Shown here piece after piece: positions 6,001 to 25,153 of a stretch of DNA of 64,000 nucleotides. Numbering within the stretch: the first letter of the stretch is position 1; each line of letters begins with the position of its first letter. A model generated the notes under the pieces. The model saw only the letters and a program-made list of their open reading frames with translations, did not search any database and was not told where the DNA came from. The DNA is taken from positions 558,001 through 622,000 of the forward strand of contig JAACJP010000010.1 of assembly GCA_013368375.1 (NCBI GenBank), given 5' to 3'. The position numbers and the translations under genes were made by a program. The stretch comes from Tricholomella constricta. Lineage: Eukaryota; Basidiomycota; Agaricomycetes; Agaricales; Lyophyllaceae.

Positions 6001-8294
6001 ACCCAACCCTTAAAGGACGATCAAAAATCACAAAAAACATCATAGGAGGCTACACTCAATTCCTAACCAGGGTGCAAGGTATGCCCAAGGTAGTCGAGAA
6101 CCGCCTCGATAAAATGAGCCGTGAATATATGTGGAACGGAGCGAAAATCCCACCTGTGAACCGGGCAACACTCAACCAAGAAACTAGCAAAGGAGGCCAG
6201 AAATGCCTAAATATCAAGGCTAGAAACGAAGCTATAGAACTCACGAAACTAAGGTCATACCTCAGATTCGACGACGAGCGCCCGCGATGGGCTAAGGTAG
6301 CCGACGAACTTATGGGCCGAAACATCTCTACACGCCGTAGAGTGCGAGACGAAACCTCGATCGTCAACCCATACCTGCAAAACTACACCGTCAAGACCAG
6401 GATGTCAAACACGACTCTCCCCGAGTCCCTAATCAGAATGCTACGTACCGCAGACAAACACAATGTCTCCTTCGCGCCAATTGCCCTCAGCACAGAATTA
6501 AAAAACGAGATGCCGATGTGGTACCACGTAGGAGTCACAAATAACAAAACCCTCATAAATAACGACGACTGGGCCCGATGTCAGCGCCATAACCATAAAA
6601 TCACCACCGTTGGAGAAATGCTTACATACATTAACAAACGCCCCACACCAGGCGAGAGAACACATAAAGAAAGAGTCAACTGCGCCTGTAAGTGCTGCCA
6701 GAGATCACGTCGACTAGGATGCCAAAATCCGGATAAGTGTAGGAAAGTAGGAAAGAAATCCCTGAACGCACTAAGCGATAAATGGCACCCCAAATCCAAC
6801 CTGGAACTTCAAGTCGCACCGAACGATGAACTGCCAGAGATCGGACAAAGAGGCGAGGACACAGATAGCCCCATAACGTTCAACCAGAATTACATAACAC
6901 AAGACAACCTAACAAATGGGATACGAGTCTTCATCAATGACAAAACCCAGACAAACTCACCAGCGACGCCGATCCGTGACAACACAGATAACACCCCAGA
7001 AATAAGAGTCTGGACGGACGGCTCATGTATCGCCAACGGCGATGAAAATGCACGAGCCGGGAGCGGCCTCTGGTACGGAGAAAATGACCAACGAAACCTA
7101 GCCATCAAACTGCCCCTAGACATGGAACAGTCGAACAATTCTGGCGAAGCCGCAGCCATCCTGATCGCAGCCCGGAATGCACCCCCCAACGCTACGTTGC
7201 ATATCTTCAGTGACTCCAAAATAGTCATCGAAGGACTTACAAAAAATTTAAATACCTGGGAAGACAAGGGATGGATAGGAATATCCAATAGAACGATCCT
7301 TAAAGCTACAGTTGCTCAGCTTAGAGCGAGAAAAGGGACCACCCTCTTCACGAAGGTCAAAGGACATAGTGGTGACGTCGGAAATGACGGAGCGGACGCC
7401 CTAGCAAAGATGGGAGCGATGAAAAACGAAGCGGATGCCATAGATCTACAGATCCTCGAGAATTTTGACCTTTCGGGCGCCAAGCTGTCCACCATGACCC
7501 AAGCACTCCTATACAAAGGTATTATGGAGCAGGAAACGGTCAAGACTAGAAGAAAAACACTGATACACCTGGATATCGTTAGACACACAATACAAGAAAA
7601 GATGGGTGACTTACCATCCGACAGCCGAATCTGGCAATCCCTTTACAACAGGGACATATCCAAAAACATAAGCGCCTTCCTATGGCGTGCGATGCACAAC
7701 TCCTACCCCATCGGAGATTTCTGGTCCCAAATCACCAACTTCGAGCATCGATCGAAATGCCAGACCTGCGACACCGAAGAGTCCATGGACCATATTCTCA
7801 CGGAATGCCCAGACTCCTGCCAGGGCACCGTCTGGCGTCTAGCTGAAACCCTATGGGCGAAGAAAGGCTTCCCGTGGTTCCCACCATCGCTCGGGCAGCA
7901 GCTCGGATGCGCCCTAATTAATTTCAAAGACGGGGAAGGCAAACTCAAAGTAGGAGTCAGTCGCCTCTACCGAATCATCATGTCAGAATCCACACACCTG
8001 ATCTGGAAATTGCGCTGCGAATGGCGCATTGGAAGAGAATCTGATCCCGAAAGAAAACATACCGAAAATGAAGTCGTAAACCGTTGGTTTGAAGCTATTA
8101 ACCGACGCTTAAAATTTGACTGCCTGATGACGGACAATATGAGATATGGGAGGAAAGCTATACGCTCCTCCCTAGTGAAACAAACCTGGGAGGGCACCCT
8201 CCAAGACGAAGAAAACCTACCAACAAAATGGTACACTAAAACCGGGGTTTTAGTGGGTAGGGGGACAGAACACCCGAGAGGGCGTAATCGCTAG
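3027..8294 (+). CDS. LINE ORF2: APE endonuclease - reverse transcriptase - RNase H polyprotein
   Basis: A 1755-residue ORF without interruptions. After a Pro/Ser-rich leader of about 145 residues comes an APE-type endonuclease (about 147-390), with IQESHL, GDTNF, SRLDRIY and STDHKLV. The reverse transcriptase (about 600-900) has YRPITVLN, the QAGFMKGR region, GVRQGDPLS and the active-site FADD near residue 880. A Cys cluster (CACKCC...C...C) sits near residue 1218. RNase H (about 1325-1465) shows its acidic residues in WTDGS, SGEAAA, FSDSK and GNDGADALA. A CQTC...H...C zinc motif near residue 1577 matches the zf-RVT region. All catalytic motifs look intact, so this ORF could be functional even though ORF1 is broken. 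Confidence 0.95.
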   Translation: MRGRPESRNNWTSTGALDDDRRSTAPGGFTTLGHPGYRARRSANTRPPNGEHTMGEGASPPTQSASTVQSAGSPQSADPGSTPSGEPDVEEGLNPTPTEQSQRQATSSGTENPNTPQTSAQNEPNIPPTPEPRTNPQGKKSKRGSLGLATLNIKGGGSHTTRGKWPHLWQIMREQSLDILAIQESHLDDLRRDEIQQMFSEQIHILNSWDRTNPNARGIAFILNKRTTRWKEAKIDELIPGRATLLHIPWHESNVTKIMGVYAPNNTNENAEFWEELEQKWRSGAFTKPDILLGDTNFVEDSMDRIPTKPPPLAPAVALGTLKTSFGLIDGWRQTFPTMRKFTFRTERGDSQSRLDRIYISETLIRFSHSWEISNTGLSTDHKLVSVRILNPASPYLGRGRYAIPNALLQHKDLRNKITELGKLYQKKLDKLDDKPRDRENNPQREHKIFKDKLVKTIRKYAKTVMPRIQKTINNLEKDRDDILNNTGIDDSEKRTTAALLDERITQLEKVRHNRARDNLATKCRLENETNSKFWYQLNKAKKPRDTIAALRNPNVDPPTLVRKSSEMAQIAKQYHENLQKEGIPEGTNVDAITDNVLQHINKSLDGQKKAQLAQRISKAEVRQAIRDLPKGKSPGIDGLTHELWAMMLGMSEQKQEAEEEPLETLDVVAALTRVFNDIEEYGVEEHTNFSKGWMCPLYKKKDRTDISNYRPITVLNSDYKIFTRALTTKLAVAVPELIHRDQAGFMKGRRIEDQTELVKMIINRCEAQDENGAIVCLDQEKAYDKINHTFLWKSMHKFGLPNELISTIKHLYHNAETVIILNGEVSTPYKVIRGVRQGDPLSCLLFNLAIESLAQMLRDSDLEGFQIKDDCERLIATLFADDTTVYLSQNDNFPDLQDILTRWCNVSGASFNVPKTMIIPVGNEEYRKRVVLERRLQRDSTEIPAGIHIANDGEPTRVLGAFVGNHVDQLDVWTPTIEKITKDLEIWNKGYPTLKGRSKITKNIIGGYTQFLTRVQGMPKVVENRLDKMSREYMWNGAKIPPVNRATLNQETSKGGQKCLNIKARNEAIELTKLRSYLRFDDERPRWAKVADELMGRNISTRRRVRDETSIVNPYLQNYTVKTRMSNTTLPESLIRMLRTADKHNVSFAPIALSTELKNEMPMWYHVGVTNNKTLINNDDWARCQRHNHKITTVGEMLTYINKRPTPGERTHKERVNCACKCCQRSRRLGCQNPDKCRKVGKKSLNALSDKWHPKSNLELQVAPNDELPEIGQRGEDTDSPITFNQNYITQDNLTNGIRVFINDKTQTNSPATPIRDNTDNTPEIRVWTDGSCIANGDENARAGSGLWYGENDQRNLAIKLPLDMEQSNNSGEAAAILIAARNAPPNATLHIFSDSKIVIEGLTKNLNTWEDKGWIGISNRTILKATVAQLRARKGTTLFTKVKGHSGDVGNDGADALAKMGAMKNEADAIDLQILENFDLSGAKLSTMTQALLYKGIMEQETVKTRRKTLIHLDIVRHTIQEKMGDLPSDSRIWQSLYNRDISKNISAFLWRAMHNSYPIGDFWSQITNFEHRSKCQTCDTEESMDHILTECPDSCQGTVWRLAETLWAKKGFPWFPPSLGQQLGCALINFKDGEGKLKVGVSRLYRIIMSESTHLIWKLRCEWRIGRESDPERKHTENEVVNRWFEAINRRLKFDCLMTDNMRYGRKAIRSSLVKQTWEGTLQDEENLPTKWYTKTGVLVGRGTEHPRGRNR

Positions 8295-10734: not shown

Positions 10735-12365
10735 GTGCACCCCCGAGTCTGTATAGTGCAGCGGATAAAGACACTCACTCAAGTTCTCAGAAAATTTATC
10801 ACATAATCCAACTTGTATTCTGGAACCTTCCCAATATTCCGGAAACCCTTGTCAAGGGCAGAGATCTCTCGAATCTTACTCCTTCAAGGCATTTGATATA
10901 GATCGCCTGGATCTTACCCCGTCAAGGCATTTGATATGGACCTGACCGAAATCGGCCAGCAGATCTACCTATTGTTCTCTTCATATAGAAATATGCTGAC
11001 AAAGATCATCAGGAGTCATGGATGAGTAAGCTGCACCTACCTGTATATAGGAATATGCTGACTAAGCCTAGATAGCAAAAATGTATATAAGGGAGAGGGA
11101 AAGTCGTATCTCCCCAAGTACAATACGGCATAAAGTAACCACCTGTTATACGGTACCTCTTGTAAGGTATACACACGTGCGAAAGCCGTAGAGCCTAACT
11201 CAGACTCAGTACTTCACCGTCGTCAGATCCGTCTGCCAGACACCCTCCCTCATTGTCAGATACAGCGTCAGATTTCATAAGAGCTTGCCCGCTAAGGTTC
11301 TCGGTAAGTGGTCAACAGTGACCGCTGAGACATTTTAGGTGCCTCCTCTTCATCCGTCGTCAGATTTACTTCTGCACGAACCCCTTCATCACTGTCCGAT
11401 ACAGCGTCGAGGCACATATTTCTCTTTTAGGTTCCACATCCTTCGTCACTGTCAGATACAGTGTCAAGGCACGTAGTTTCCCATATCCTTCGTCACTGTC
11501 AGATACAATGTCAAGGCACGTAGTTTCCCATATCCTTCGTCACTGTCAGATACAACGTCGAGGCACGTAGTTCTCGATATCCTTCGTCACTGTCTGATAC
11601 AGCGTTGAGGCACGTAGTTTCTGATATCCTTCGTCACTGTCCGATGTAGTTCGAAGCACGTATTTTCCAGGTCCAGCAATCCTTTGTCACTGTCTGATAC
11701 AGCGCCAAAGCACATATGTCCAGCATCAATTAGTCAGCACCATTAGCATCAGTCACGACCATCAGCATCAGTCACATCTATCAGCATCAATCACAATCAT
11801 CAGCATCAGTCAATCATCAGCATCACACTTTGTTCATCATTGTCCACAGCACCGAAGTATAGTCCATCGTCATCATTGACATAGCTCGTCATCGTCGTAC
11901 ACAGCGTCGACACCTATCTCCATCAGATCAAGTCTGTTTCACACCGTTTCAGCATCAGACCTTGTCCATCATTGTCCACAGCCCTGCAGTATAGTTCGTC
12001 ATTATCAGATATAGCCCGTCATCACCGTACACAGCGCCAATGCCTATCTTCATCAGTTCAAGTCTGTTTCGCACCGTTCCTTCAGTAGTCAACAGAGGAC
12101 AACACAGCGATCAATATTCCCATGGTTACATCACTTTCCCACAGTCACAGATTTTACAAGTCAAGTCACATCAAGTTATATTACATCACCTATTTTCCCA
12201 CGATCCCTTCAGGTGTATCAAGTCTTTGAGGACACTAATAAACTATTTATAGGTCATTTACAGGTTACACTTGATACTACAAATTTCCTCAAACATCCAG
12301 GTAACTTCCCGTTGCATTCAGCTAGCTTCCGGTAGCCCTGGACACTTAGTTAAACAAACTTAAGT
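10735..12365. repeat. Non-coding, tandem-repeat-rich insertion in gypsy2
   Basis: About 1.6 kb without protein-like ORFs separates the protease part from the RT part of gypsy2, where gypsy elements normally have coding sequence. It contains a TATA-like stretch (tgtatataaggg, 11081-11092), a pair of similar 'tcaaggcatttgatat' blocks near 10887 and 10922, and a 47-bp tandem array. It also holds a string of about 20-bp 'atcagcatcagtca' units (11725-11830) and a block of about 133 bp repeated at about 11829 and 11961. The five bases TTAAG occur at both possible edges (10731-10735 and 12360-12364), but the ends are not TG...CA. It could be a solo LTR of another element family; this is unproven. 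Confidence 0.5.
11438..11672. repeat. 47-bp tandem repeat array (five units)
   Basis: Units begin atccttcgtcactgtc and contain 'gataca..gtc.aggcacgtagtt'. Four consecutive copies start at 11438, 11485, 11532 and 11579 with exact 47-bp spacing, and a fifth, diverged copy follows at 11626. Poorer copies lie on both sides (about 11345-11437 and 11679-11725). The units touch each other with no unique spacer. Confidence 0.9.
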
Positions 12366-15300
12366 GTGACATCGCAAGAGGAGGTAACAGGACGGAGCCG
12401 CACCCGAAAACCACCTCCACTGAACTACTTTCCTCCAAACATTCCGAGGTCAAAATTCAAATCCCACCCCAAACAGAAATCTGCAACGTCCCCAACGACA
12501 GAAACACAGGAAGAAGAGGAAACCAACCCGGAAACGGAGGTCGAAGACGAAACCGGAGAGGGAGAAGAGGACGTCGAAACACAAAACATCCGCCTGATCA
12601 GAGCGGCGCCATTCGCAAACCTCATCAGAGACGGAGCTACGGCGTTCCAACTACACATCTCCTCCACCGAACAGGAAGAACACCTCCACGCCAATAACAC
12701 CTCTGACGATGAACCCAAGCAACCCAAGACAGAAAAGGAAATCTTTGAAGAAGTCGTACCTCCGGAGTACAGGGACTTCGAAGACGTATTCTCAGCGGGC
12801 GAAGCGAAAACCATCCCCCACACAGACCTTACGATCACACAGTGGAACTCGATGAAAACACCACCCCTCCCTTCAGAAAGATATACAACATGTCCGAACT
12901 GGAGTTAAAAGCCCTAAAGGATTACATCGACGAGATGCTCGGTAAAGGGTTCATCCGACCGTCGAGTTCATCAGCAGGAGCTCCGGTACTGTTCGCAAAA
13001 AAGAAGGACAGATCCCTCCAACTATGCGTGGACTATAGAGGATTAAATCGGATCACCAAGAAGAACCGTTACCCCCTACCTCTGATCGGAGATCTCATAG
13101 ACCGACTTCAAAAAGCGAAAGTATACTCAAAGATTGACCTCCGAGTGGGCTACAACAATGTACGCATAGCTCCGGGACACGAATGGAAGACAGCTTTCCG
13201 CACCCGCTATGGACTTTTTGAATACCTGGTAATGCCCTTCGGCATGACAAATTCACCCGCGACATTCCAACACTTCATGAACAACATTTTCCACGACATG
13301 AACGATGTGTTCATAGTGATCTACCTCGACGACATCCTGGTTTTCTCGGAGACCTTAGAGGAACATCACGGACATGTTCGGAAGGTCCTCGAAAGGCTCC
13401 AGAAACACAACCTTCATGCAAAACTGGAGAAATGCACCTTCCACACCACGGAGATCGAATACTTAGGCGTCATTGTATCCCCCGGCAGAGTAAAGATGGA
13501 CCCAGAAAAAGTCGACGCGATCAGGAAGTGGCCTAGACCAACAAAGGTCAAAGAACTCCAGTCATTCCTAGGTTTTGCAAACTTCTACCGACAATTTATT
13601 GACAATTATTCCGGCATAACGAAGAGGTTAAACAAACTCACGCAAAAGGACACAATCTGGAAATGGGATTCCGAATGTGAAGGTGTCTTCGAGCTACTAA
13701 AGAAAGCATTCTCCTCCGCACCCATCCTGCGACATTTTAATCCTCAACTGCCGGTGATACTAGAATGCGATGCTTCCGACTTTGCCATAGCAGGGATCAT
13801 CTCCCAATTTGACGAGACATCGCAAGACTTACGTCCTGTCACCTTTTACGCGAGAACCATGATCGACGCGGAGCTCAACTATGACATCTACGATAAGGAG
13901 CTCCTAGCAATCGTGAAAGCGTTTAAGCAATGGAGGGCCTACCTTGAGGGATCTCCCCACCGCATTCAAGTGTACTCCGACCATAACAATCTGCAATATT
14001 TCTCCACGACCAAGCAACTCAGTCGCAGACAAGCAAGATGGTCGGAATGCCTGGCGAACTTCGACTTCCAGATAAACTACCGACCCGGAAGACTGGGAGC
14101 GAAGCCAGATGCCCTCACACGACGAGCGGAGGTATACCCCAAGAAGGGCTTCGAACAGGATCATAATTTGTTCAATAACCGCATCATCATACCCCCCGAA
14201 CGGTTGAACGCATCTCTAATCTTGAACGAACAACTCCTGTTGAACAATGTCCATAACGCACCCCGAGATGAGTTCTTCGAGAAACATGCACCCAAACCCG
14301 GAGAAGAATCCTCTGCATTCTCATTATCCAATGATCACAAGCTACTCCTTCGCAACGGAAGAATCTATGTACCTGACCATTCCAGACTACGCCTCGACAT
14401 CCTGCAGCAACACCACGACCACAAACTGCGCAGACATCCAGGGATCAGAAAGACCACACAACTCATCATGAGGACATATTTCTGGCCCGGATTACGGAAG
14501 GAGGTCGCCCGATACGTCCGAAGCTGCCACGCTTGTAAAAGAGCGAAAGTCCCGCGCCACAGCCCTTATGGATTATTAAAACCACTACAGATTGGACGAT
14601 GGGCATGGACCTCCATATCCATGGATCACATTGTGGAACTACCAGAATCGGACGGGTATGATGCTATCCTGGTCGTAGTATGCCGCCACACCAAGCAAGG
14701 CATCCTCATACCCTGTCATACAACGGACACAGCAAAAGACCTTGCCCAACTATTCCTGGAACACGTCTTCTCCAAACACAGACTGCCCGACGACATCATC
14801 TCCGACAGAGGCACTCTCTTCGTCTCCCGCTTCTGGAGCTCGCTGTGCAAAGCCCTGGACATCAAATCGAACCTTTCGACCGCGTACCACCTGGAGACCG
14901 ACGGCCAGACGGAACGGGTAAATCAGACACTGGAACAATACCTCAGGATGTACGTGAACTATCTCCAGACCAACTGGCGGACACAGCTCCCTCTGGCGGA
15001 GTTCACGTATAACAATACGACCCATTTGACCACGGGAGTGTCCCCTTTCTTTGCGAACAAGGGTTATCACCCCCGCCTGACAATTTCTATAAAAGACATA
15101 CCAGCGAAAGAAGCACAGGAGGTAGCTGTAGACCTCCGGACCCTCCAAAGCTACCTCCACCAAGAAATAGAGATCACAAACGAAGCCTACAAACGATTCG
15201 CGGACAAGAAACGGGACCCCACACCAGACTGGGCTGTAGGAACGGAGGTATGGCTCGACTGTCGGAACATCAAGACGAAACACCCCTCCAAAAAGCTGGA

Positions 15301-15678
15301 CCACCGGAGATTGGGCCCATTCAAAGTCCTACAAAAGATCTCCAGCCACGCGTATCGACTGGAACTACCTCCGACACTGAAAGGAATTCACAACGTATTC
15401 CACGTCAAGTTACTCGAGAAACACGAACATGAGAACTTCCCAGGACGATCAAACCACCTCCGCAGACGATCGAAGTCGAAGGCGAAGATCACTATGAAGT
15501 AGGACGAATCCTGGACTCCCGAACACGAGGGAAACACGTCCTCTATCTAGTACAATGGGAAGGGTATGGCCCCAAAGACGACACCTGGGAACCAGCAAAA
15601 AATATAGAAGGAGCAAAGGACATGGCCCTTGAATTCCACCGACTATTCCCAAGAAAGCCACGGGACCCCACAATTTAA
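12366..15678 (+). pseudogene. gypsy2 pol: RT - RNase H - integrase - chromodomain, frameshifted
   Basis: The long central frame (12842-15502, 886 aa) carries RT motifs (CVDYRGLN, YLDD near 13322), RNase H, and an integrase with an HHCC zinc finger (about 14410-14540). The integrase acidic motifs are MDHIVE, SDRGTLF and the QTERVNQ region. It is broken at both ends. Just before RT the upstream frame (12366-12908) shifts near 12831-12840. After integrase the frame shifts near 15451-15457, and a complete chromodomain follows in another frame (about 15454-15678: HYEVGRILDSR, LVQWEGY, TWEP). The acidic segment before RT ends with the usual EVVPPEYRDFEDVFS block. Two frameshifts plus the upstream damage make this a pseudogene. 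Confidence 0.85.
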
Positions 15679-16697
15679 AAGACACTCGACGAACACTCAC
15701 GCACATCAACACATCACGAAAATTATGCAAATTCTCTCAAGGTTAAACTCTACTATATGTATTCAACCACCAGCACAACAATATCACAAAAAGAAAAAAT
15801 ATCAAGAAAAAAGAAAAACAAACGAACGAACTTCGGACTGTAAATATTTAGCAAAAAAGGAATGGAACGAAGGCCAAGACACTGCAGAAGGGACCGACTA
15901 CTCGATGCGACGACGCTTGGAGGGACCCGCATTGGAAGAAGAACCGCCCTCATGACCACCTCCCACCTCCCCAACCAACCCTATCTCCAGGGGACGCATC
16001 GACACAATGTCCTGCTCGTCATCGGCGATCAACTGAGACTGAGATACGAACTCTGTCGCGGGTGAGCGAAGGGCGGTGAAGAGCAAGGAAATGCTCGAAC
16101 GCGGGGAACGGCGACTTGGGATCGACGGGGGGCAGAACAGCTCGAGGAGCGAGTGCCGCTCAAGAATCTTGTGGGTGCCATCGATGATACTTCGGACCGG
16201 CGACGCCTCCAACTCGATGAGGGCGCAACGCAGAGCACCATCCGCAATATACATGTCGGACGCGAAGGCGGTACGCGCAAGGTCGAGGGCTACAAAAAGT
16301 TTCAGAAACGAGAAGGAGAGAATGAAGGGAATCGAAACTCACCGTCAACGCGAGTGCGGAGGTCCAAGGCGTGACCACGCCAATAATCCCTAACCTCCTG
16401 AAGGTGGACAACGTGCCCCTGCAAACCAGCAACCTCATCCTGAAGAACCGATACCTCCATCCGAAGATCCTGAACCTCCGCATCACGATCAACGTCTACG
16501 ACCTCCGAAGTCTGCGCCTGCAGATGAAGGAAGCGCTCGCGTTCATCGGCGAAGTCGGACAATACACCACAAAGATGGGACTTGGCACGCTGACCCTCGA
16601 CCTGAAGAAGCTCGACTTGAACAGAGAGGGCCTGCGCGCGCGCGACCTCCTGGTCATAGAGGCGTTGAAGACGAAGGTACTCCTCAGACGAGGGAGG

Positions 16698-17154
16698 TGT
16701 AAGGGGACGTCCGGATGGGCAGAGGCGAGCAAAGAGCGCAAGCCGCCGCGAGCCTAGATAGTCCTAAATACGATCAAGTCAGCGATAAGAGCGCGAAGCG
16801 TGATGAGGGCGACGAGAGAGTAAGCCTGAGAGTCGATCAATGTGTAAACCCGAAGATACTGTTATTGTTCAGGTTGGAGATATCCTATCTCCAACCCTAG
16901 GCTTATATACTACATCGCCGAGCCAGTGACTAAGGCGGTATGTAAGAGCGCTGACTACTGATGAGTAAACAACTGTCCAGCTGACTGATAGGGATCTAAG
17001 TAGTGGTGTCAGTGTGGGATAATAACTACGAAAGGGGCGTAAGAACAGTGGAGCGGTCAGCAAGCATGTCTAAGACGGGGGCCATGGGGGCCGATGACAG
17101 GAAGCAAGAGACTAAGCAACAGATAGGAGTGGGCGCACGGTGCATCCCCTTACA
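16698..17154 (-). repeat. 3' LTR of the KH element
   Basis: 457 bp, differing from its partner at only a few positions, for example one extra base in 'gctgactactg' and the base before 'cttaca' at the far end. In element orientation this is the downstream LTR and is preceded by the polypurine tract at 17155-17167. Confidence 0.95.
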
Positions 17155-17167
17155 TCACCCCCCCTCT
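17155..17167 (-). promoter_or_regulatory. Polypurine tract of the KH element
   Basis: AGAGGGGGGGTGA on the minus strand directly abuts the 3' LTR. It primes plus-strand synthesis. The core GGGGGGGTGA followed by TGT is identical to the gypsy1 junction. Confidence 0.8.
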
Positions 17168-17199
17168 AGCGTTCGTCTACCACGACAAACTCAGTTTCT

Positions 17200-18204
17200 T
17201 CATTTTTTGGGCCACGGCGTCCCCCGTCGGGCCGTTGGGCATGGAGCGATAGGGCTGGGGACGGAAGTGCCAGTTGTGATGCAATGAACGTCCATCGGCG
17301 TTGCAGGGATACTGACTGACATAGGGGAGGGAGCTGTGGAGCGGGCGAGCGGAGAGGGCGCGCGCGTAGGGTCGGGTCGGGTGTCCATTGCGGTCCGAGG
17401 CGTGGGTGCCGCGCTGGGAGGACGCAGGAGGGCGTCACGGGTAGGGGAGCTGGTGCCGGTGGGGGCGGCCGCCCTGCTATACGACGGCCTCAGCGTACAG
17501 GTGATAGGAGCTGCCGGCTCCCGTAAAATGTTCAAAAGGGCGGGAGGTAAAGGGTCCCTGTGAGCCGGGGCAGGAGGGAGAGGCTCCCGACGAGCAGGGG
17601 CCGGCGCTGCAGGGGCAACCGGCGCAGATTTTGCCTTCTTCTGCTTCTTAGGTACGCGCACGCGTTGGCGAGCAATGCGCTTCCCCAATACAATAAGAGC
17701 ATCACCGATCTGCCGATCAGTGCCCTTGATAGAGACTAGGCGCTGCCGGTCCTCATCTGGCCCCATGGTGAAGGCCGAGACGCGAGCGCCGGAGAGGTCG
17801 TGGATTTGTTTAAGTCCCTTCCCTCGAGAGCCGACGATGTGTGGCATCAGGGAGTCTGGGAACTCCAAGCCGATCAGATATTGGTCAGCCTTCCCTTCCG
17901 TAGAGTGGAATTCCCCAGAGAGGTGGAAGGACGAGGGGTGGCCAGTATTGGCAGTAGAGCGGCCGCTCTTGCGAGGCAGAGGAGCGGGGGGAGGAGGTTT
18001 GTTAGACAATGGAGGGGCTTTGGAAAGCGCCGCCGTAGTAGCGACAGCGATAACGGTGCCCTCTTCAAGGGCCGATAGACGAGCCTCCATGGCCGAGAGT
18101 GCCAGTCGCGTCTGGCGTACAACACGGGCCATGTCTTCCAGTTCTGCCGTCGAGAACACGCCCGAGAGAGCAGGCTGAGAGGCAAGAGGGGTAGGGGTAG
18201 TCAT
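17200..18204 (-). CDS. KH-domain Gag-like protein of the small LTR element
   Basis: 334 residues, the only ORF of the element. The N-terminal 60 residues are helix-forming (STAELEDMARVVRQ...ALSAMEARLSALEE). After a Pro/Ser linker comes a KH domain (about residues 105-180): DQYLIGLEFPDSLMPHIVG, the GxxG loop as GSRG, then GLKQIHDLSGARVSAF, and a final helix GDALIVLGKRIA. A Lys/Arg-rich patch follows (VRVPKKQKKAK), then a long Pro/Ala/Thr tail. There is no CCHC zinc knuckle, protease or RT. By position it corresponds to Gag, and the KH fold would supply single-strand RNA binding in place of a zinc knuckle; that role is inferred. The start at 18204 lies about 100 nt inside the 5' LTR. Confidence 0.85.
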   Translation of the reverse strand: MTTPTPLASQPALSGVFSTAELEDMARVVRQTRLALSAMEARLSALEEGTVIAVATTAALSKAPPLSNKPPPPAPLPRKSGRSTANTGHPSSFHLSGEFHSTEGKADQYLIGLEFPDSLMPHIVGSRGKGLKQIHDLSGARVSAFTMGPDEDRQRLVSIKGTDRQIGDALIVLGKRIARQRVRVPKKQKKAKSAPVAPAAPAPARREPLPPAPAHRDPLPPALLNILREPAAPITCTLRPSYSRAAAPTGTSSPTRDALLRPPSAAPTPRTAMDTRPDPTRAPSPLARSTAPSPMSVSIPATPMDVHCITTGTSVPSPIAPCPTARRGTPWPKK

Positions 18205-18292
18205 TGTCAGAGATTATGAGAGGGTTGGGGTGTGTGAGGACACAGAGGAGTTAGGTGGGTGTGCGACGAGCTAGAGGGGCAGGCCGCGTAGG

Positions 18293-18305
18293 AACCTGAA
18301 CAACC
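18293..18305 (-). promoter_or_regulatory. Self-primer binding site of the KH element
   Basis: Immediately inside the 5' LTR the minus strand reads GGTTGTTCAGGTT. Its TTGTTCAGGTT part is a perfect 11-nt complement of AACCTGAACAA inside the same LTR (18473-18483, minus reading). No match to the usual initiator tRNA-Met primer site (TGGTAGCAGAGC) is seen. This layout is that of Tf1/sushi elements, whose mRNA 5' end primes its own reverse transcription. Confidence 0.75.
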
Positions 18306-18761
18306 TGTAAGGGGACGTCCGGATGGGCAGAGGCGAGCAAAGAGCGCAAGCCGCCGCGAGCCTAGATAGTCCTAAATACGATCAAGTCAGCGATAAGAGC
18401 GCGAAGCATGATGAGGGCGACGAGAGAGTAAGCCTGAGAGTCGATCAATGTGTAAACCCGAAGATACTGTTATTGTTCAGGTTGGAGATATCCAATCTCC
18501 AACCCTAGGCTTATATACTACATCGCCGAGCCAGTGACTAAGGCGGTATGTAAGAGCGCTGCTACTGATGAGTAAACAACTGTCCAGCTGACTGATAGGG
18601 ATCTAAGTAGTGGTGTCAGTGTGGGATAATAACTACGAAAGGGGCGTAAGAACAGTGGAGCGGTCAGCAAGCATGTCTAAGACGGGGGCCATGGGGGCCG
18701 ATGACAGGAAGCAAGAGACTAAGCAACAGATAGGAGTGGGCGCACGGTGCATCTCCTTACA
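18306..18761 (-). repeat. 5' LTR of the KH element
   Basis: 456 bp. In element orientation it is the upstream LTR. It contains a TATA box about 34 nt before the segment AACCTGAACAA, which is complementary to the sequence just inside the LTR. The few differences from the other LTR point to a recent insertion. Confidence 0.95.
18511..18517 (-). promoter_or_regulatory. TATA box in the KH element LTR
   Basis: TATATAA on the minus strand, about 34 nt upstream of the self-complementary segment at 18483. That would place the transcript start at or near the primer sequence, as self-priming requires. The same motif is present in the 3' LTR. Confidence 0.65.
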
Positions 18762-18811
18762 GGAGGGGAGGGAACCGGGGCAGCAGGGGGGGTCGAAATC
18801 AACATGGCGGG

Positions 18812-19301
18812 TGTTAGGGGAACACCCATTCACGCCCTCCGACGCTCACCGACTGTCTCCCGACACGTGCGATCACTCCCGACCGATCGCGCCCCCAACC
18901 CCGACGCTCCGACCCAAGCGTCGGTGTACATACTTATACATCCCTGTCGCTACCTCCCCTTCCAGCGTGCGCCCGATCCCGACGTCCGACATTCCGACGT
19001 CGGTCGCCCGACCTCGTGCCAGCACCCTGAGCCACGAGGATCGGACAGTGTCGGGAACGTGTACAGACACGCGCCGCTGCCCATCCGTTATCATTTACGT
19101 ACCATACACCCCAGAGAGCCGGCCCTCACGTAGTTTACTCGTATATAGTCATCCTCCTGACATGGGGGAATCCTTTACTCTATTCTCATTGGATTCCCCT
19201 CTGCCAGGTAGGTTTACTTACGCTCTCTCTACCGTACATAATATAACATTGGATTCCCCTCTGCCAGCACGACTAAGCTCTGCGCTGAGGTCGCCCTAAC
19301 A
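18812..19301 (+). repeat. 5' LTR of gypsy1
   Basis: 490 bp, from TGTTAGGGGAACACC to CGCCCTAACA. The TATATAG at 19142-19148 is about 33 nt before the segment ttactctattct (19175-19186) that matches the primer site. ORFs read inside it on either strand are not conserved protein genes. Confidence 0.97.
19142..19148 (+). promoter_or_regulatory. TATA box of gypsy1 LTR promoter
   Basis: TATATAG in U3, 33 nt before the self-complementary segment at 19175. This is normal TATA-to-start spacing if the transcript begins with the primer sequence. Confidence 0.65.
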
Positions 19302-19303
19302 GC

Positions 19304-19315
19304 AGAATAGAGTAA
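19304..19315 (+). promoter_or_regulatory. Self-primer binding site of gypsy1
   Basis: AGAATAGAGTAA, two bases inside the 5' LTR, is the exact reverse complement of 19175-19186 in the LTR. No tRNA primer site is visible. The arrangement fits Tf1/sushi-type self-priming, in which the 5' end of the mRNA folds back, is cleaved and serves as primer. Confidence 0.8.
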
Positions 19316-19387
19316 CTCTAGAAACCCGACGAAGCCGACCGATCTGCTTCCGCGCCGAAACACGCGTCTGCTACACGCGACCGTCCA

Positions 19388-20632
19388 ATGCGCGCTCGCT
19401 CCGATCGCCCCGCCCAGTCCCGTTTTGAGATGTCCGAATTCGGTGACATGTCGCAGCGACCGTTCTCTCCCTTCCTCACGACGGAGGAGCGGTTGGCGAA
19501 TATGGAAGCCACAATTTCGGCTCTCTCTGCCTCCAATACCTCCAACTCGGCCTCTATGGACCGCCTCTCCGCTCTTTTCGAAAAATTCATGTCGGGGACA
19601 CCCCCCAACCCCACCCCCGCTGCTCCCGAAGCAGACACAACCCCTCCGCCGCCTGAGACGACCACCCCGCTGCCAGGCTCTCCGCGATCCGGATCGCACC
19701 ACCTCCGACCGTCGCCCCCTCCCATTTACGACGGCGCCCGAACGGGCGGTCGCGCGTTCTTGAACGCCTGCAAGCTCTACTTCTCCTTGTGCGGAGGAAG
19801 TTTCGCCGACGACCATGCCCGAATAGTATGGGTGCTGTCGTACATGCAGCACGGGCGAGCCGCCGACTTCGTCAGTCGGGTGTTCCAGTTCGGAACCGCC
19901 AAGGATGTCTTTCCCGCCTGGAAGGACTTCGAAGACACCTTCCGTGGCGAGTTCTTCCTCTTCGACGAGGTCGCTGATGCCGCGCTCATCCTGGAGTCGA
20001 CGGCGTACTTCCAGAATGGTCGATCGATCGACGAGTACATCGACTCGTTCCGATCCCTGTGGGTCAAGGCGGGCTACCCAGATGGGCATCACCTGGTCCT
20101 CAAATTCCGTCGGGGAATGGACCTGAAGCTCTCGAGGCGACTCGGAAGCATCACCACGGGTCGCCCGCACGACGAGAAGATTGAGGAGTGGCTGAGGATC
20201 GCTCGTTCTCAAGATTTCATCATGAGGTCGGAGGACGACTTCCACCGTCGGATGGTCCCGACAAAGGCGCCCGACAGCCGCCCGCCCGCCGCCGCAGCTG
20301 CACGGTGGGTGTTCGCTACTGCCCCCGCTCCCGCTCCCCCCGCCCCCCGCGCTCCTGTCGCACCAGCCCCCAGGCCGATCCCCCAGGGCATCCCAATGGA
20401 CGTAGATCGGATGCGCGATCGAGTCGCGCCTGCCGACGACCACTGTTTCCGGTGCAAGAAGAAGGGTCACTACTCTCGTGACTGCCCTTTGCGCTGGGAC
20501 GTGCGCCACATGCTCGACGATGAGCTAGAGGCGCTTATCATGGAACGTCTAGCTCGCAAGGACACTGTCCCTGCCGACCCGACTCCATCGTCGGCCGACG
20601 CGACCGTCTCCGACGCCGAGGAGGGTTTTTAA
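19388..20632 (+). CDS. gag: gypsy1 Gag polyprotein
   Basis: 414 residues. The N-terminal region has a predicted helix (EERLANMEATISALSAS) and a Pro-rich linker. The capsid-like retrotransposon gag core runs from about residue 115 (FLNACKLYFSLCGGSF...) to about 280. An Ala/Pro repeat (about 310-340) precedes the CCHC zinc knuckle CFRCKKKGHYSRDC near residue 353. The protein packages the element RNA in virus-like particles. A second Met (MSEFGDM) occurs at residue 15 and is the first Met in the left copy. The stop codon TAA at 20630 overlaps a slippery heptamer that gives access to pol in the -1 frame. Confidence 0.93.
   Translation: MRARSDRPAQSRFEMSEFGDMSQRPFSPFLTTEERLANMEATISALSASNTSNSASMDRLSALFEKFMSGTPPNPTPAAPEADTTPPPPETTTPLPGSPRSGSHHLRPSPPPIYDGARTGGRAFLNACKLYFSLCGGSFADDHARIVWVLSYMQHGRAADFVSRVFQFGTAKDVFPAWKDFEDTFRGEFFLFDEVADAALILESTAYFQNGRSIDEYIDSFRSLWVKAGYPDGHHLVLKFRRGMDLKLSRRLGSITTGRPHDEKIEEWLRIARSQDFIMRSEDDFHRRMVPTKAPDSRPPAAAAARWVFATAPAPAPPAPRAPVAPAPRPIPQGIPMDVDRMRDRVAPADDHCFRCKKKGHYSRDCPLRWDVRHMLDDELEALIMERLARKDTVPADPTPSSADATVSDAEEGF
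20623..20629 (+). promoter_or_regulatory. Predicted -1 ribosomal frameshift site GGGTTTT
   Basis: The sequence G GGT TTT in the gag frame fits the X XXY YYZ slippery rule and is followed at once by the gag stop TAA. The pol frame is -1 to gag and is open through this point: after the slip it reads TTA ATC ACA and on into pol without a stop. A downstream RNA structure was not tested. Confidence 0.6.
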
Positions 20633-20643
20633 TCACACAACGG

Positions 20644-23600
20644 GTGGAACGTACGCCCCCGTTGTCTAGTTGTAATCGGTTCGCTCCTTTATCCGTAGAA
20701 TACGCCAATACACCTAATATTGCTGCTATTCCGACGAGTGATCCGACCGACAAAGACGTACAAAACCCCTCCGACCCGACGACACCGATCGCAGTCGCAA
20801 AGCCGATCGCCCCGTCGCGTCGTGGCCTACCCCGCTGGGAAAAGCGACTTCCTAGTCGCTTCATCGCCGCTGCCTCCCCCTGCCCCAGATCCCTGTGGCT
20901 CAACGTCGAACTGGAGACCACCGACACCCAGGAGTCGCATGCCGTCACTGCCCTAGTGGACAGCGGAGTGACCGGCAGTTTTCTCAATGTCGCTTTCGTC
21001 GAGAAACACAAGCTCACGACCAAGGTGCTTAGTCGGCCATCCCCGGTTTACAATGTGGACGGCACCCTCAACGAAGGCGGTTTGGTCTCTTGCATCGTAG
21101 AAGCTGTCTTGCGATACAACGGTCATACCGAACGAGCCGTCTTCGGGGTCACCCAGTTAGGCAAGCAAGACATGATCCTCGGGTTCAACTGGCTTAAAAA
21201 CCATAACCCCGAGATCGATTGGGAGACCAAGGAGGTGAAGATGAGTCGCTGTCTGACGCAGTGTGACACCTGCAAGGACGAGGTCAAAGCCGATCGGCGC
21301 GCACGCACCAGAGTGCGCGCAGCGATCCGCGCCTGTCGAGCCGACGGTATCCCGATGACTGAGCCCGACCTGCGAGCCCCGACCAACCCATATGTTGAGG
21401 ACGACTCTGATGAGGAGGAGTTCCTCCCTTACACCCCGATCCTGGAGGAACCTGACCCAGAGTCTGACGACTTCCTGGTGGAAACCTTCCTGAATGGCGA
21501 TCGCATCTTCGCGACCGCGATCCATCCGACTCTGACCGCCGAACATATTCGGGCCAGCCAAACGACATCGCAGCGACTTGCGGAAGTGCACGCTGCTAAC
21601 TCCGTGCCCAGAACTTTCCGTGACGCAGTACCGACCCACCTCCACAACTTTGAAGATGTCTTCTCCAAAGTCGCATTCGATGAGCTTCCAGAGCGCAAGC
21701 AATGGGATCATGCCATCGAACTGGAGCCGGGCGCGTCGCCGACGGGCACGAAGGTCTACCCGCTCTCACCGGCAGAACAGGTCGAACTCGACGCGTTCCT
21801 CAAGGAGAACCTCGAGACAGGTCGCATCCGACCGTCCAAGTCGCCCATGGCGTCGCCGGTCTTCTTCATCAAGAAGAAGGACAGGTCGCTCCGACTGGTT
21901 CAGGACTATCGGACGCTCAATGCGCTCACAGTGAAGAACCGATACCCGCTGCCCCTCATTAGCGAACTGGTGAATAACCTTCGCGGCGCGCGGTACTTCA
22001 CCAAGTTGGACGTCCAATGGGGGTACAACAACGTCCGGATCAAGGAAGGCGACGAGTGGAAGGCAGCGTTTCGGATGAATCGCGGCCTCTTCGAGCCGCT
22101 CGTCATGTTCTTCGGCCTCACGAACAGCCCCGCCACATTTCAGACCATGATGAATGATATCTTCCGCGATCTGATCGCCGAAGGTGTTGTTTGCGTGTAC
22201 CTCGATGACATCTTGATTTATCCAAAGACGCTAGAGGAACACCGTCGGGTCACGCGACTGGTACTGGACCGACTCCGCAAACATCAGCTGTTCTTAAAGC
22301 CCGAGAAATGCGAATTCGAGCAGACTAAGATCGAGTATCTCGGGCTGATCATTTCGCAAGGGCAAGCGGAAATGGATCCGGTTAAAGCCGCTGGAGTGTT
22401 GGAATGGCCGGCGCCGAAGAACAAGAAGGAGGTTCAAGCGTTCCTAGGCTTCACCAATTTCTACCAACGGTTCATCCAGGACTTCTCGCACCACGCCCGA
22501 CCCCTGTTCGATCTGACGGGCAAGGACGTCGCCTGGCGGTGGGGAGAGTCGGAGCAGTCGGCCTTTGCCCTTCTGAAGTCTGCGATCACGTCGGGGCCAG
22601 TCCTCATGTTCCCCGACGACGACCGACCGTACCGCATCGAAGCCGACTCGTCCGACTTCGCAACGGGCGCGGTCCTGTCGCAAGAATCACCGTCCGATGG
22701 CAAGTGGCACCCGGTCGCGTTCTACTCGAAGAGCTTGAATGCCGTCGAGCGGAACTACGAGATCCATGACAAAGAGATGCTGGCGATCATCCGGTCTCTG
22801 GAGGAATGGAGACACTTCGTAGAAGGCGCAAAGCACAAGGTGGAGATCTGGACCGACCACAAGAACCTTGAGTACTTCCTCACCGCGAAGAAACTCAATC
22901 GGCGTCAAGCCCGATGGTCGCTTTACCTCGCTAACTTCGACTTCGCCCTCCACCACCGTCCTGGCCGTAGCATGGGCAAACCCGACGCGTTATCGCGTCG
23001 CCCCGACCATGGCGACGGAAGCGCCGACAACGCCAACATCGTGCTGCTCAAACCAGAATTCTTCGCCGTTCGTGCAACTGAAGGCCTTGCACTGGTCGGA
23101 GAGGAGGATGATGTGCTGAAAGCGATCCGCAAGGGCAATCGCGATGGGGCTCAGGAGGATGCGGTCGCGAAAGCGGCTCAACTGGTCAAAGCATCCAAGA
23201 TCGCCGGCCGCTCCCTTCGCTTTGGCGAGTGGGGAGAGGAAGGCGGTCTGCTCACGTTCCGTGGACGGATCTATGTCCCGAACGTCCCAGACCTTTGCCG
23301 ACGCATTGTGGAGCAGCACCACGACTCCAAGGTCGCCGGTCACCCCGGTCGCTGGAAGACGCTCGAACTGGTATCGCGCAACTACTGGTGGCCCCAGATG
23401 TCGCGCTTCATCGGTTCGTACACCAGCACCTGTGACATGTGTCTGCGCACGAAACCTCGCCGCCAACTCCCCGTCGGACAGCTGAAGCCGCTTCCCATCC
23501 CCGAAGGCCGATGGAATGTCGTATCAGTCGACTTCATCACCGAACTTCCAGAGTCCAACGGCCACGACGCGATCATGAATGTCGTGGATTCGGTCGGAAA

Positions 23601-24663
23601 GCGCGCGCACTTCATCGCGTCGCACACGACTTGTTCGGCCCTGGGAGCTGCGAACCTCTACCGTCGCCACGTCTGGAAGCTGCACGGTCTCCCCGACGCA
23701 TTCGTCTCCGATCGAGGTCCACAGTTCGTCGCCGAGTTCATGCGCGAACTGTACAGACTCCTGGGTATCAAGCTGTCGGCCTCGACGGCATACCACCCAC
23801 AGACCGACAGACAGACGGAGCGTGTCAACCAGGAACTGGAACAGTTCTTGCGAGTCTTCTGCAATGAGCGCCAGAACGATTGGGAGGATCTCCTGCCCAA
23901 CGCCGAATTCAGTTACAACAACCATGTACATTCGGCGACGCAGCAGACCCCCTTCCTGCTTGACACTGGTCAGCATCCGCGCATGGGCTTTGAGCCGCGT
24001 CGGGGCGCTTCCAAGAACGAGTCAGCCGACGAGTTCGTGGAGCGCATGAAGGAAGCACAGGAGGAAGCCAAGGCAGCGCTTTCAAAGGCCAAAGACGACA
24101 TGGAGCGGTATTACAACCAGCGACACGCCCCAACGCCCGACTACCAGCCTGGCGACAAGGTATACTTGGACGCGACCGACATTTCTACGACCCGACCGTC
24201 TAAGAAGTTGTCGCATCGCTACCTTGGCCCTTTCGTCGTGCAAAGGCGAGTCGGCCCGCTTGCATACCGCCTCCTGCTGCCTCAGTCCATGAAGCGCATC
24301 CACCCAGTCTTCCACGTCGTGAAGCTCATCCCCGCCGTTGCTGATCCGATCGAAGGTCGTCGATCCGATCCCCCTCCGCCCCCCGACATAATCGACGACG
24401 AACCCCATTACAAAGTTGAAAAGATCCTCGATAGCCGAACCTTCCGCAAAAAACTACAGTACAAGGTCCTGTGGAAGGGCTATGGTTACGAAGAAGCTTC
24501 TTGGGAACCTCGCGAAAATGTCGCCGCCCCCGATCTGGTGCGAAAGTTCCACCGTGACAACCCTGACGCTGCCTGCCACATTCGTGGCATATTCACGTTA
24601 TCCCCGGCCGTCTTTGCCACCGCGGCCCCGCACCGAGTCGTTGCAATTCAAAAGGGGGGGTGA
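20644..24663 (+). CDS. pol: gypsy1 Pol: protease - RT - RNase H - integrase - chromodomain
   Basis: 1339 residues counted from a GTG; the frame extends upstream into the end of gag, so expression by -1 frameshift is more likely than a separate start. The protease has LVDSGVTGS near residue 106. RT has VQDYRTLN and the active site YLDD (about 22198-22209), followed by RNase H with EADSSDFA and the DHKNLEYF region. Integrase shows the H-H-C-C finger (HHDSKVAGH...CDMC) and acidic motifs VDFITELPES, VSDRGPQF and the QTERVNQ region. The C-terminal chromodomain (HYKVEKILDSR, VLWKGY, SWEP) has its aromatic cage residues. All motifs look intact. The final TGA abuts the 3' LTR. Confidence 0.96.
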   Translation: MERTPPLSSCNRFAPLSVEYANTPNIAAIPTSDPTDKDVQNPSDPTTPIAVAKPIAPSRRGLPRWEKRLPSRFIAAASPCPRSLWLNVELETTDTQESHAVTALVDSGVTGSFLNVAFVEKHKLTTKVLSRPSPVYNVDGTLNEGGLVSCIVEAVLRYNGHTERAVFGVTQLGKQDMILGFNWLKNHNPEIDWETKEVKMSRCLTQCDTCKDEVKADRRARTRVRAAIRACRADGIPMTEPDLRAPTNPYVEDDSDEEEFLPYTPILEEPDPESDDFLVETFLNGDRIFATAIHPTLTAEHIRASQTTSQRLAEVHAANSVPRTFRDAVPTHLHNFEDVFSKVAFDELPERKQWDHAIELEPGASPTGTKVYPLSPAEQVELDAFLKENLETGRIRPSKSPMASPVFFIKKKDRSLRLVQDYRTLNALTVKNRYPLPLISELVNNLRGARYFTKLDVQWGYNNVRIKEGDEWKAAFRMNRGLFEPLVMFFGLTNSPATFQTMMNDIFRDLIAEGVVCVYLDDILIYPKTLEEHRRVTRLVLDRLRKHQLFLKPEKCEFEQTKIEYLGLIISQGQAEMDPVKAAGVLEWPAPKNKKEVQAFLGFTNFYQRFIQDFSHHARPLFDLTGKDVAWRWGESEQSAFALLKSAITSGPVLMFPDDDRPYRIEADSSDFATGAVLSQESPSDGKWHPVAFYSKSLNAVERNYEIHDKEMLAIIRSLEEWRHFVEGAKHKVEIWTDHKNLEYFLTAKKLNRRQARWSLYLANFDFALHHRPGRSMGKPDALSRRPDHGDGSADNANIVLLKPEFFAVRATEGLALVGEEDDVLKAIRKGNRDGAQEDAVAKAAQLVKASKIAGRSLRFGEWGEEGGLLTFRGRIYVPNVPDLCRRIVEQHHDSKVAGHPGRWKTLELVSRNYWWPQMSRFIGSYTSTCDMCLRTKPRRQLPVGQLKPLPIPEGRWNVVSVDFITELPESNGHDAIMNVVDSVGKRAHFIASHTTCSALGAANLYRRHVWKLHGLPDAFVSDRGPQFVAEFMRELYRLLGIKLSASTAYHPQTDRQTERVNQELEQFLRVFCNERQNDWEDLLPNAEFSYNNHVHSATQQTPFLLDTGQHPRMGFEPRRGASKNESADEFVERMKEAQEEAKAALSKAKDDMERYYNQRHAPTPDYQPGDKVYLDATDISTTRPSKKLSHRYLGPFVVQRRVGPLAYRLLLPQSMKRIHPVFHVVKLIPAVADPIEGRRSDPPPPPDIIDDEPHYKVEKILDSRTFRKKLQYKVLWKGYGYEEASWEPRENVAAPDLVRKFHRDNPDAACHIRGIFTLSPAVFATAAPHRVVAIQKGG
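24650..24663 (+). promoter_or_regulatory. Polypurine tract of gypsy1
   Basis: aaaagggggggtga directly before the 3' LTR, overlapping the end of pol. It primes plus-strand DNA synthesis. The last ten bases and the start of the LTR match the KH element junction. Confidence 0.8.
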
Positions 24664-25153
24664 TGTTAGGGGAACGCCCATTCATGCCCTCCGACGCTCA
24701 CCGACTGTCTCCCGACACGTGCGATCACTCCCGACCGATCGCGCCCCCAACCCCGACGCTCCGACCCAAGCGTCGGTGTACATACTTATACATCCCTGTC
24801 GCTACCTCCCCTTCCAGCGCGCGCCCGATCCCGACGTCCGACATTCCGACGTCGGTCGCCCGACCTCGTGCCAGCACCCTGAGCCACGAGGATCGGACAG
24901 CGTCGGGAACGTGTACAGACACGCGCCGCTGCCCATCCGTTATCATTTACGTACCATACACCCCAGAGAGCCGGCCCTCACGTAGTTTACTCGTATATAG
25001 TCATCCTCCTGACATGGGGGAATCCTTTACTCTATTCTCATTGGATTCCCCTCTGCCAGGTAGGTTTACTTACGCTCTCTCTACCGTACATAATATAACA
25101 TTGGATTCCCCTCTGCCAGCACGACTAAGCTCTGCGCTGAGGTCGCCCTAACA
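24664..25153 (+). repeat. 3' LTR of gypsy1
   Basis: 490 bp, same ends as the 5' LTR. It begins directly after the TGA of pol. The differences I could see from the 5' LTR (four positions in the first 250 bp) are all C/T or G/A changes. Confidence 0.97.

Follow-up and report, generated by a model that had tools for sequence, protein, structure and literature searches.

The 64,000-nucleotide stretch of Tricholomella constricta DNA analysed here (the window) carries, on its minus strand at positions 16698–18761, a complete LTR (long terminal repeat) retrotransposon of 2064 bp whose main ORF (open reading frame) codes for a protein with a KH domain (hereafter the KH element), and 50 bp away, inside the same repeat, a full-length Ty3 chromovirus (element B; Table 1). 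A first-pass annotation, made from the letters alone, had described the former as LTRs of 456 and 457 bp with a GGAGG TSD (target-site duplication), a PPT (polypurine tract) and a PBS (primer-binding site) around a single 334-codon ORF. This anatomy was borne out by the PPT AGAGGGGGGG, by alignment of the two LTRs, which differ by three substitutions and one gap and have the ends TGTAAGG..CCTTACA, and by empty insertion sites. With an LTR pair, TG..CA ends, a TSD, a PBS and a PPT, the KH element has the features by which LTR retrotransposons are recognized. Other ORFs between the LTRs in the same orientation do not exceed 103 aa (amino acids), and the opposite strand holds one 167-aa ORF that overlaps the main ORF. 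The insertion lies in a repeat, since a search with its left flank (16398–16697) gave 40 positive matches among the 40 scored (of 108 candidates), 33 of which, including the window itself, were at least 94% identical. All three of the paralogous flank copies that we fetched run uninterrupted across the insertion point with one GGAGG, and differ from the joined flanks by 0–2 substitutions, counted by eye, in approximately 100 bases.

To follow the suggestion that further copies be sought, we searched the T. constricta genome (44.1 Mb, 118 contigs) at the DNA level, with at least 41 matches (40 of 70 candidates scored), and at the protein level, with 24 matches. Eighteen copies with internal sequence were found, counting the split pieces on contig C28 and those on contig C32 as one broken copy each, together with 20 LTR-only matches from the DNA search, no two of which lie near enough on one contig to frame another element. 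Both LTRs are complete in ten copies, each with a perfect 5-bp TSD (that of copy L043, in which the LTR ends read TAATA, after border correction), and within these copies the LTRs differ by 0, 0, 1, 1, 1, 3, 5, 6, 8 and 8 substitutions in approximately 456 positions, the last value being that of L043. The full ORF (333–336 aa) is open in nine of the 18 copies; L007 stops at residue 327 and the other eight are truncated or broken. These data support recent mobility of the KH element, as first proposed from its near-identical LTRs. The pairs of pieces L039 and L044 (G000:C28) and L040 and L045 (G000:C32) appear to be KH copies split by later insertion or rearrangement, and the gap on C28 is, at approximately 5.8 kb, about as long as a chromovirus.

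Selection on the ORF was assessed by dN/dS (the ratio of non-synonymous to synonymous substitution rates) in eight of the 36 possible full-ORF pairs, four across the two subfamilies and four within subfamilies. Across subfamilies the ratio was 0.30–0.38 for the whole ORF, 0.25–0.39 for residues 1–104 and 0.07–0.27 for residues 105–190, which span the KH region, and within subfamilies it was 0.26–0.41 for the whole ORF and 0.00–0.49, on few changes, for the KH region. These values indicate that the KH ORF is under purifying selection.

The 334-aa protein comprises a predicted helix, a basic/proline linker, the KH domain and a proline/serine-rich tail that contains PMDV and, near its end, TARRG. 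The KH domain read by eye in the first-pass annotation scored 25.9 bits against KH_1 (cut-off 21.5; residues 114–170), and it is the only domain above cut-off in the main ORF, in which no protease, RT (reverse transcriptase), RNase H or integrase was found; an NCBIfam scan likewise gave no match above cut-off. AlphaFold2, supplied with 66 family members, predicted with confidence a KH fold at residues 109–179 and a helix at residues 19–48, and placed the protein outside these two parts at low confidence (mean pLDDT, i.e. predicted local distance difference test, 62.9). The top Foldseek match of the model is the third KH domain of hnRNP K (E 3.7e-6, template modelling score 0.86 by target length), with 35 matches at E ≤ 0.001 and 21–31% identity in the ten best. 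A sequence search of solved structures found IGF2BP2, NOVA-2 and hnRNP K weakly (best E 9.6e-4). The KH_1 match, the predicted β–α–α–β–β–α fold and the GXXG loop together characterize a type I KH domain, and the protein would bind single-stranded RNA or DNA. With hnRNP K, PCBP and NOVA it shares this fold and loop, but the present protein is short and carries only one KH domain, together with a helix and a low-confidence tail, and it is encoded by a mobile element. A capsid domain was neither found by the profiles nor predicted by AlphaFold2 in the KH protein, Retrotrans_gag was absent from the scans of both the protein and the 66 aligned family members, and BLASTP with the Gag of element B gave no significant match. 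The earlier idea of a KH domain serving as the RNA-binding module of a Gag-only parasite is supported as far as a KH-bearing, non-autonomous element is concerned, but not as regards a Gag.

Relatives of the protein numbered 12 in a first search, five of the closest being recorded for T. constricta, and at least 85 (E ≤ 1e-3) in a profile search that scored 7991 candidates sharing most words; 75 of the 85 rows are metagenomic, and the named hosts are T. constricta, Crepidotus variabilis and Collybia nuda. All 66 of the family members that were aligned match KH_1 and show no retroelement domain, the CCHC and D[ST]G patterns being found in 0/66, so that the lack of a zinc knuckle, protease, RT and integrase noted for the window protein extends to them. 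The second glycine of the GXXG loop is present in all 66 and the first in 63. No relative in IMG/VR or in GTDB genome contigs was confirmed, as expected for a fungal element. For an analysis of contig size we used the 75 metagenome rows, leaving out five Tricholomella rows, three other NCBI rows and two without a contig size. Full-size proteins (≥320 aa) account for 44 of the 75, and 31 of these lie on contigs of 1.3–1.9 kb, three on shorter ones, seven at 1.9–3.5 kb and three on longer ones, with a median of 1636 bp. By comparison, the window element is predicted to give an RNA of approximately 1.61–1.79 kb. In a control, eight metagenome rows of helper-type Gag gave a median of 2.8 kb (one-sided p 0.0007), a small set, gathered from one query sequence at a stricter cut-off. 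This suggests, without proving it, that the relatives are also short expressed units.

Two features beyond the first-pass annotation, a self-priming signature and an adjacent likely helper, bear on how such an element might move. The primer site that had been noted is present, but it is complementary to the element's own LTR and not evidently to a tRNA. The PBS, TTGTTCAGGTT, has its complement, AACCTGAACAA, at LTR position 278–279, 33–34 nt downstream of where a TATATAA box begins. All 11 nt match in nine of the ten full copies, and nine of the ten have the box. With the 5′ end of the RNA placed by its spacing from the TATA box, the PBS complements that end, and when the RNA was folded from the predicted start its first 12 bases paired with the PBS in both the minimum free energy and the centroid structures. 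Element B has 12 nt of LTR–PBS complementarity, and its 5′ end likewise pairs with the PBS in both structures. A second chromovirus family, represented by L047 (G000:C1:898300-899600), shows by eye a paired change, element B having GAATAGAGTAA/TTACTCTATTC and L047 GAATAGTGTAA/TTACACTATTC: a PBS base and the matching LTR base both differ and complementarity is kept, which amounts to a natural covariation test of self-priming. On the fixed position, the TATA spacing and this paired change, the KH element is probably self-primed. A tRNA-type PBS was rejected by inspection, tRNA genes not having been scanned, as the LTR edge lacks a TGG and complementarity to the element's own LTR accounts for the site. 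A near-perfect palindrome, GGTTGGAGATA..TATCTCCAACC, immediately precedes the self-primer in the LTR (18480–18504 and 16872–16896), and in element B the pair GGGGAATCC/GGATTCCCC stands on both sides of the self-primer; these are possibly structures that aid priming or cleavage.

The cis signals of the KH element also point to a chromovirus. The KH element and element B share AGGGGGGGTGATGT at the PPT–LTR junction, and their LTR tips are similar, TGTAAGG/CTTACA and TGTAAGG/CTAACA in the KH subfamilies, TGTTAGG/CTAACA in element B and TGTCAGG/CTAACA in the second chromovirus family. The junction AGGGGGGGTGATGTAAGG, with TGTAAGG, has 16 exact occurrences in the genome, each by position in a KH element, and 224 more with one mismatch; the reversed control pattern has none. 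Among 100 of the 240 places listed, the 84 one-mismatch junctions all read TGTTAGG or TGTCAGG. On contigs 1–10 the junction lies 1765–1814 bp downstream, on the same strand, of 39 of the 49 listed RT_RNaseH_2 sites (from the best 150 of 747 candidates), the other ten being without it. Members of this chromovirus family with long open pol frames are present in many copies in the genome. These shared signals are most simply read as meaning that the KH element uses the RT/RNase H and integrase of this lineage, and element B is likely, by the same signals, to be a copy of the helper family. Its rve core scored 28.3 bits, below the cut-off of 32.6.

Table 1. Features of the KH element and of the neighbouring element B in the window
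Feature	Position	Strand	Basis
TSD GGAGG, first copy	16693..16697		Sequence and empty sites
3′ LTR, 457 bp	16698..17154	minus	LTR alignment
PPT AGAGGGGGGG, followed by TGA and the 3′ LTR	17158..17167	minus	Read from sequence
Main ORF, 334 aa	17200..18204	minus	ORF list
PMDV motif in tail, also found upstream of the zinc knuckle in Ty3 Gags	17287..17298	minus	Motif count
KH domain, residues 109–179, predicted β–α–α–β–β–α, GXXG loop GSRG	17668..17880	minus	Profile, AlphaFold2, Foldseek
Predicted N-terminal helix, residues 19–48, coiled-coil-like by eye	18061..18150	minus	AlphaFold2
PBS TTGTTCAGGTT, separated from the 5′ LTR by 2 nt	18293..18303	minus	Sequence
5′ LTR, 456 bp	18306..18761	minus	LTR alignment
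Putative self-primer AACCTGAACAA in 5′ LTR, complementary to PBS at 11/11	18473..18483	minus	Sequence and RNA folding
TATATAA box, first base 34 nt upstream of self-primer	18511..18517	minus	Sequence
TSD GGAGG, second copy	18762..18766		Sequence
Element B, full-length chromovirus, TSD GCGGG	18812..25153	plus	Domain and LTR searches
Element B LTRs, 490 bp	18812–19301, 24664–25153	plus	LTR alignment
Element B Gag: Retrotrans_gag, CCHC, PMDVD motif	19388..20632	plus	Profile search
Element B Pol: protease, RT, RNase H, integrase zinc-binding, SH3_Tf2-1, chromodomain	20644..24663	plus	Profile search

Elsewhere in the window there are a 1755-aa ORF (3027–8294) that by eye, no search having been run, resembles a LINE (long interspersed nuclear element) with endonuclease, RT and RNase H, a 47-bp tandem repeat of approximately six units (11387–11668) and an 886-aa Ty3 pol ORF (12842–15502; RT, RNase H and SH3_Tf2-1), apparently of another lineage than element B.

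A further point of contact with the chromovirus is found in the tail of the KH protein. Many KH tails carry [TS]PM[DQEN][VI], often followed by D, and relatives often have PMQVD. Of the 58 KH tails that reach 100 aa or more, 43 contain PM[DQEN][VIL], compared with a mean of 0.43 and a maximum of 3 in shuffled sequences; in 34 of the 58 the motif is followed directly by D or S (shuffled mean 0.1, maximum 2). Among 42 relatives of the element B Gag, 29 bear CCHC, and 28 of these helper-type Gags have the motif 11–13 residues ahead of the zinc knuckle; 20 of the 29 come from the same genome, and eight of the other nine have the motif. We know of no function for PM[DQEN][VI], and read the tail motif, on its sequence, as a remnant or mimic of the Gag linker.

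Given these findings, we propose, at a probability of roughly one half, that the KH element is a satellite LTR retrotransposon of a self-priming Ty3 chromovirus, and that its KH RNA-binding gene acts as a partly Gag-mimicking adaptor. Transcription would start in the LTR approximately 34 nt after the TATA box, and the 5′ end of the RNA would fold back onto the PBS and itself serve as the primer. RT/RNase H from the chromovirus would act in trans, also using the shared PPT, and the chromovirus integrase would act on the similar LTR tips and produce the 5-bp duplications. The KH protein would bind the element's own RNA and bring it into helper particles, and may also, or alternatively, help the 5′ end to anneal to the PBS. 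Its mimicry of Gag would be partial, consisting of a helix, an RNA-binding domain, the PM[DQEN][VI] motif and a basic tail, without a capsid domain. ‘Gag-like adaptor’ is in this sense a working hypothesis, in which the suggested link to Gag is the short tail motif together with the parallel layout.

Several observations weigh against this proposal. Direct evidence is lacking for helper dependence, RNA binding and particle entry, and in sequence the PPT–LTR junction and LTR tips are all that the KH element and the chromovirus have in common; no 12-mer other than the junction is shared with element B, which means that the KH element did not arise from it recently by deletion. With respect to priming, copy L033 has one mismatch in the self-primer, on the LTR side, and L002 lacks the exact TATATAA string. 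The whole 5′ RNA folds no better than shuffled sequences (z −0.13 for the KH element and −0.77 for element B). Among random 30-mers taken from the window, 13 of 4357 match the KH LTR over at least 11 nt and 22 of 4332 match the element B LTR over at least 12 nt, and at such rates match length by itself is modest evidence. As for the protein, the motif in the window copy is PMDVH, without the D, and the motif counts are not independent because the family members are related. Residues 191–334, after the KH domain, have a cross-subfamily dN/dS of 0.42–0.53, and such weak constraint lends no support to a tail that is strongly required. The C content of the KH-element leader, 0.43 against 0.37 for the whole internal region, is a modest enrichment.

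Among other explanations, the one that survives best, unlikely as we judge it, is that the protein is directed at the host, acting on the silencing, export, stability or translation of the RNA of the element or its helper, with packaging left to RNA signals alone. The best matches of the fold, to the KH domains of hnRNP K/PCBP, would suit such a role, as would a leader that is 43% C with six overlapping CCC compared with one in element B, but fungal leaders are often C/T-rich, and a Gag-type tail motif has no obvious place in it. Slightly less likely is a true replacement of Gag, in which the KH protein would itself build the particle or ribonucleoprotein that holds the element RNA and take only Pol from the helper. 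By eye, the order of helix, KH domain, PM[DQEN][VI] and basic tail parallels the helix-rich start, capsid, PMDVD and zinc knuckle of Gag; however, the structure prediction shows no capsid fold and gives most of the remaining protein, beyond the helix and KH domain, low confidence, as in disordered regions. Less probable again is that the gene is a captured passenger, a host RNA-binding gene in a gutted LTR element with no role in transposition, for which maize Bs1 would be an analogous LTR element. The genome does hold other KH genes, 16 of its 32 KH_1 matches lying in copies of the KH element and 16 at five other loci, but the nearest of these (C23:574) is only 35% identical over 65 aa, so that no recent host source is in sight. 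Moreover, the KH region is under purifying selection, and 63 aligned relatives from outside this genome, only 27–41% identical to the window protein, all have, in their protein sequences, KH_1 and no other retroelement domain, which argues that the gene was not captured recently. The first-pass annotation had allowed that relatives might expose a captured fragment, yet none resembles a host gene fragment at the protein level, the surrounding DNA having been read in this genome only. Finally, it is very unlikely that the KH element is a degenerate form of a larger autonomous element, with KH as Gag plus pol, missing from this genome: nine outside relatives do lie on contigs of more than 5 kb that are unread (P0006, P0011 from Crepidotus variabilis, P0014, P0050, P0060, P0061, P0065, P0076 and P0077 from Collybia nuda), but all 16 genome KH_1 matches of this type are in short-element copies, 31 of the 44 full-size metagenome relatives are on contigs of about the size of the short element's RNA, and the LTR–PBS junction, at up to two mismatches, occurs at 16 places in the genome, every one a KH copy, so that no long element with that junction was found here.

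Compared with known systems, the satellite proposed here is a variant of the non-autonomous LTR retrotransposon, and by test neither a TR-GAG, a TRIM nor an autonomous Ty3 element; unlike autonomous Ty3/Gypsy elements it has no protease, RT, RNase H or integrase gene. Judged by titles and the beginnings of abstracts, with most subscription papers outside its coverage, our literature search found no LTR element coding for a KH protein. In its PBS the KH element resembles self-priming elements of the Tf1/sushi type. The plant TR-GAG AT5TE33540 has two LTRs and a single Gag ORF, makes new insertions, does not encode most of the enzymes and resembles a potentially autonomous member of its family (PMC8704663). 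The KH element likewise has two LTRs and a single ORF and does not encode most enzymes, but its ORF has a KH domain instead of a Gag domain and no CCHC. In Tj1 the PBS is complementary to the 5′ part of its own RNA, the element codes for Gag, PR (protease), RT and IN (integrase), and self-priming is proposed, with the statement that it was first shown for Tf1 (PMC4600332). The PBS of the KH element also complements its own RNA, and its likely helper has SH3_Tf2-1 and a chromodomain, but the KH element itself codes for none of the four Tj1 proteins. TRIM, Helenus and Ajax are described as short LTR elements with a PBS and PPT that are likely to be mobilized in trans; Helenus is reported from three Agaricomycetes, and TRIMs are given as <1000 bp and without mobilization proteins (PMC10886601). 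Although the KH element is also a short LTR element with a PBS and PPT, it differs from a TRIM, as described there, in its 2064 bp and its conserved ORF under purifying selection.

Non-autonomous LTR elements have mostly been viewed as gene-less or as carriers of a normal Gag. We tentatively suggest, at somewhat less than even odds, that the KH element stands for a widespread class of satellites of mushroom-forming fungi with one retained gene, for a Gag-mimicking KH protein, in which a KH domain would replace RNA selection by capsid and zinc knuckle and a self-primed RNA would ride in chromovirus particles. If this is true, a non-Gag RNA-binding gene, conserved and under selection, as the sole gene would represent a third way to be a retrotransposon parasite. 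The KH element would then also offer a natural system for how the RNA of a parasite is chosen over that of its helper and how self-priming is assisted, which can be tested because the likely helper is in the same genome, in many copies and with long open pol frames.

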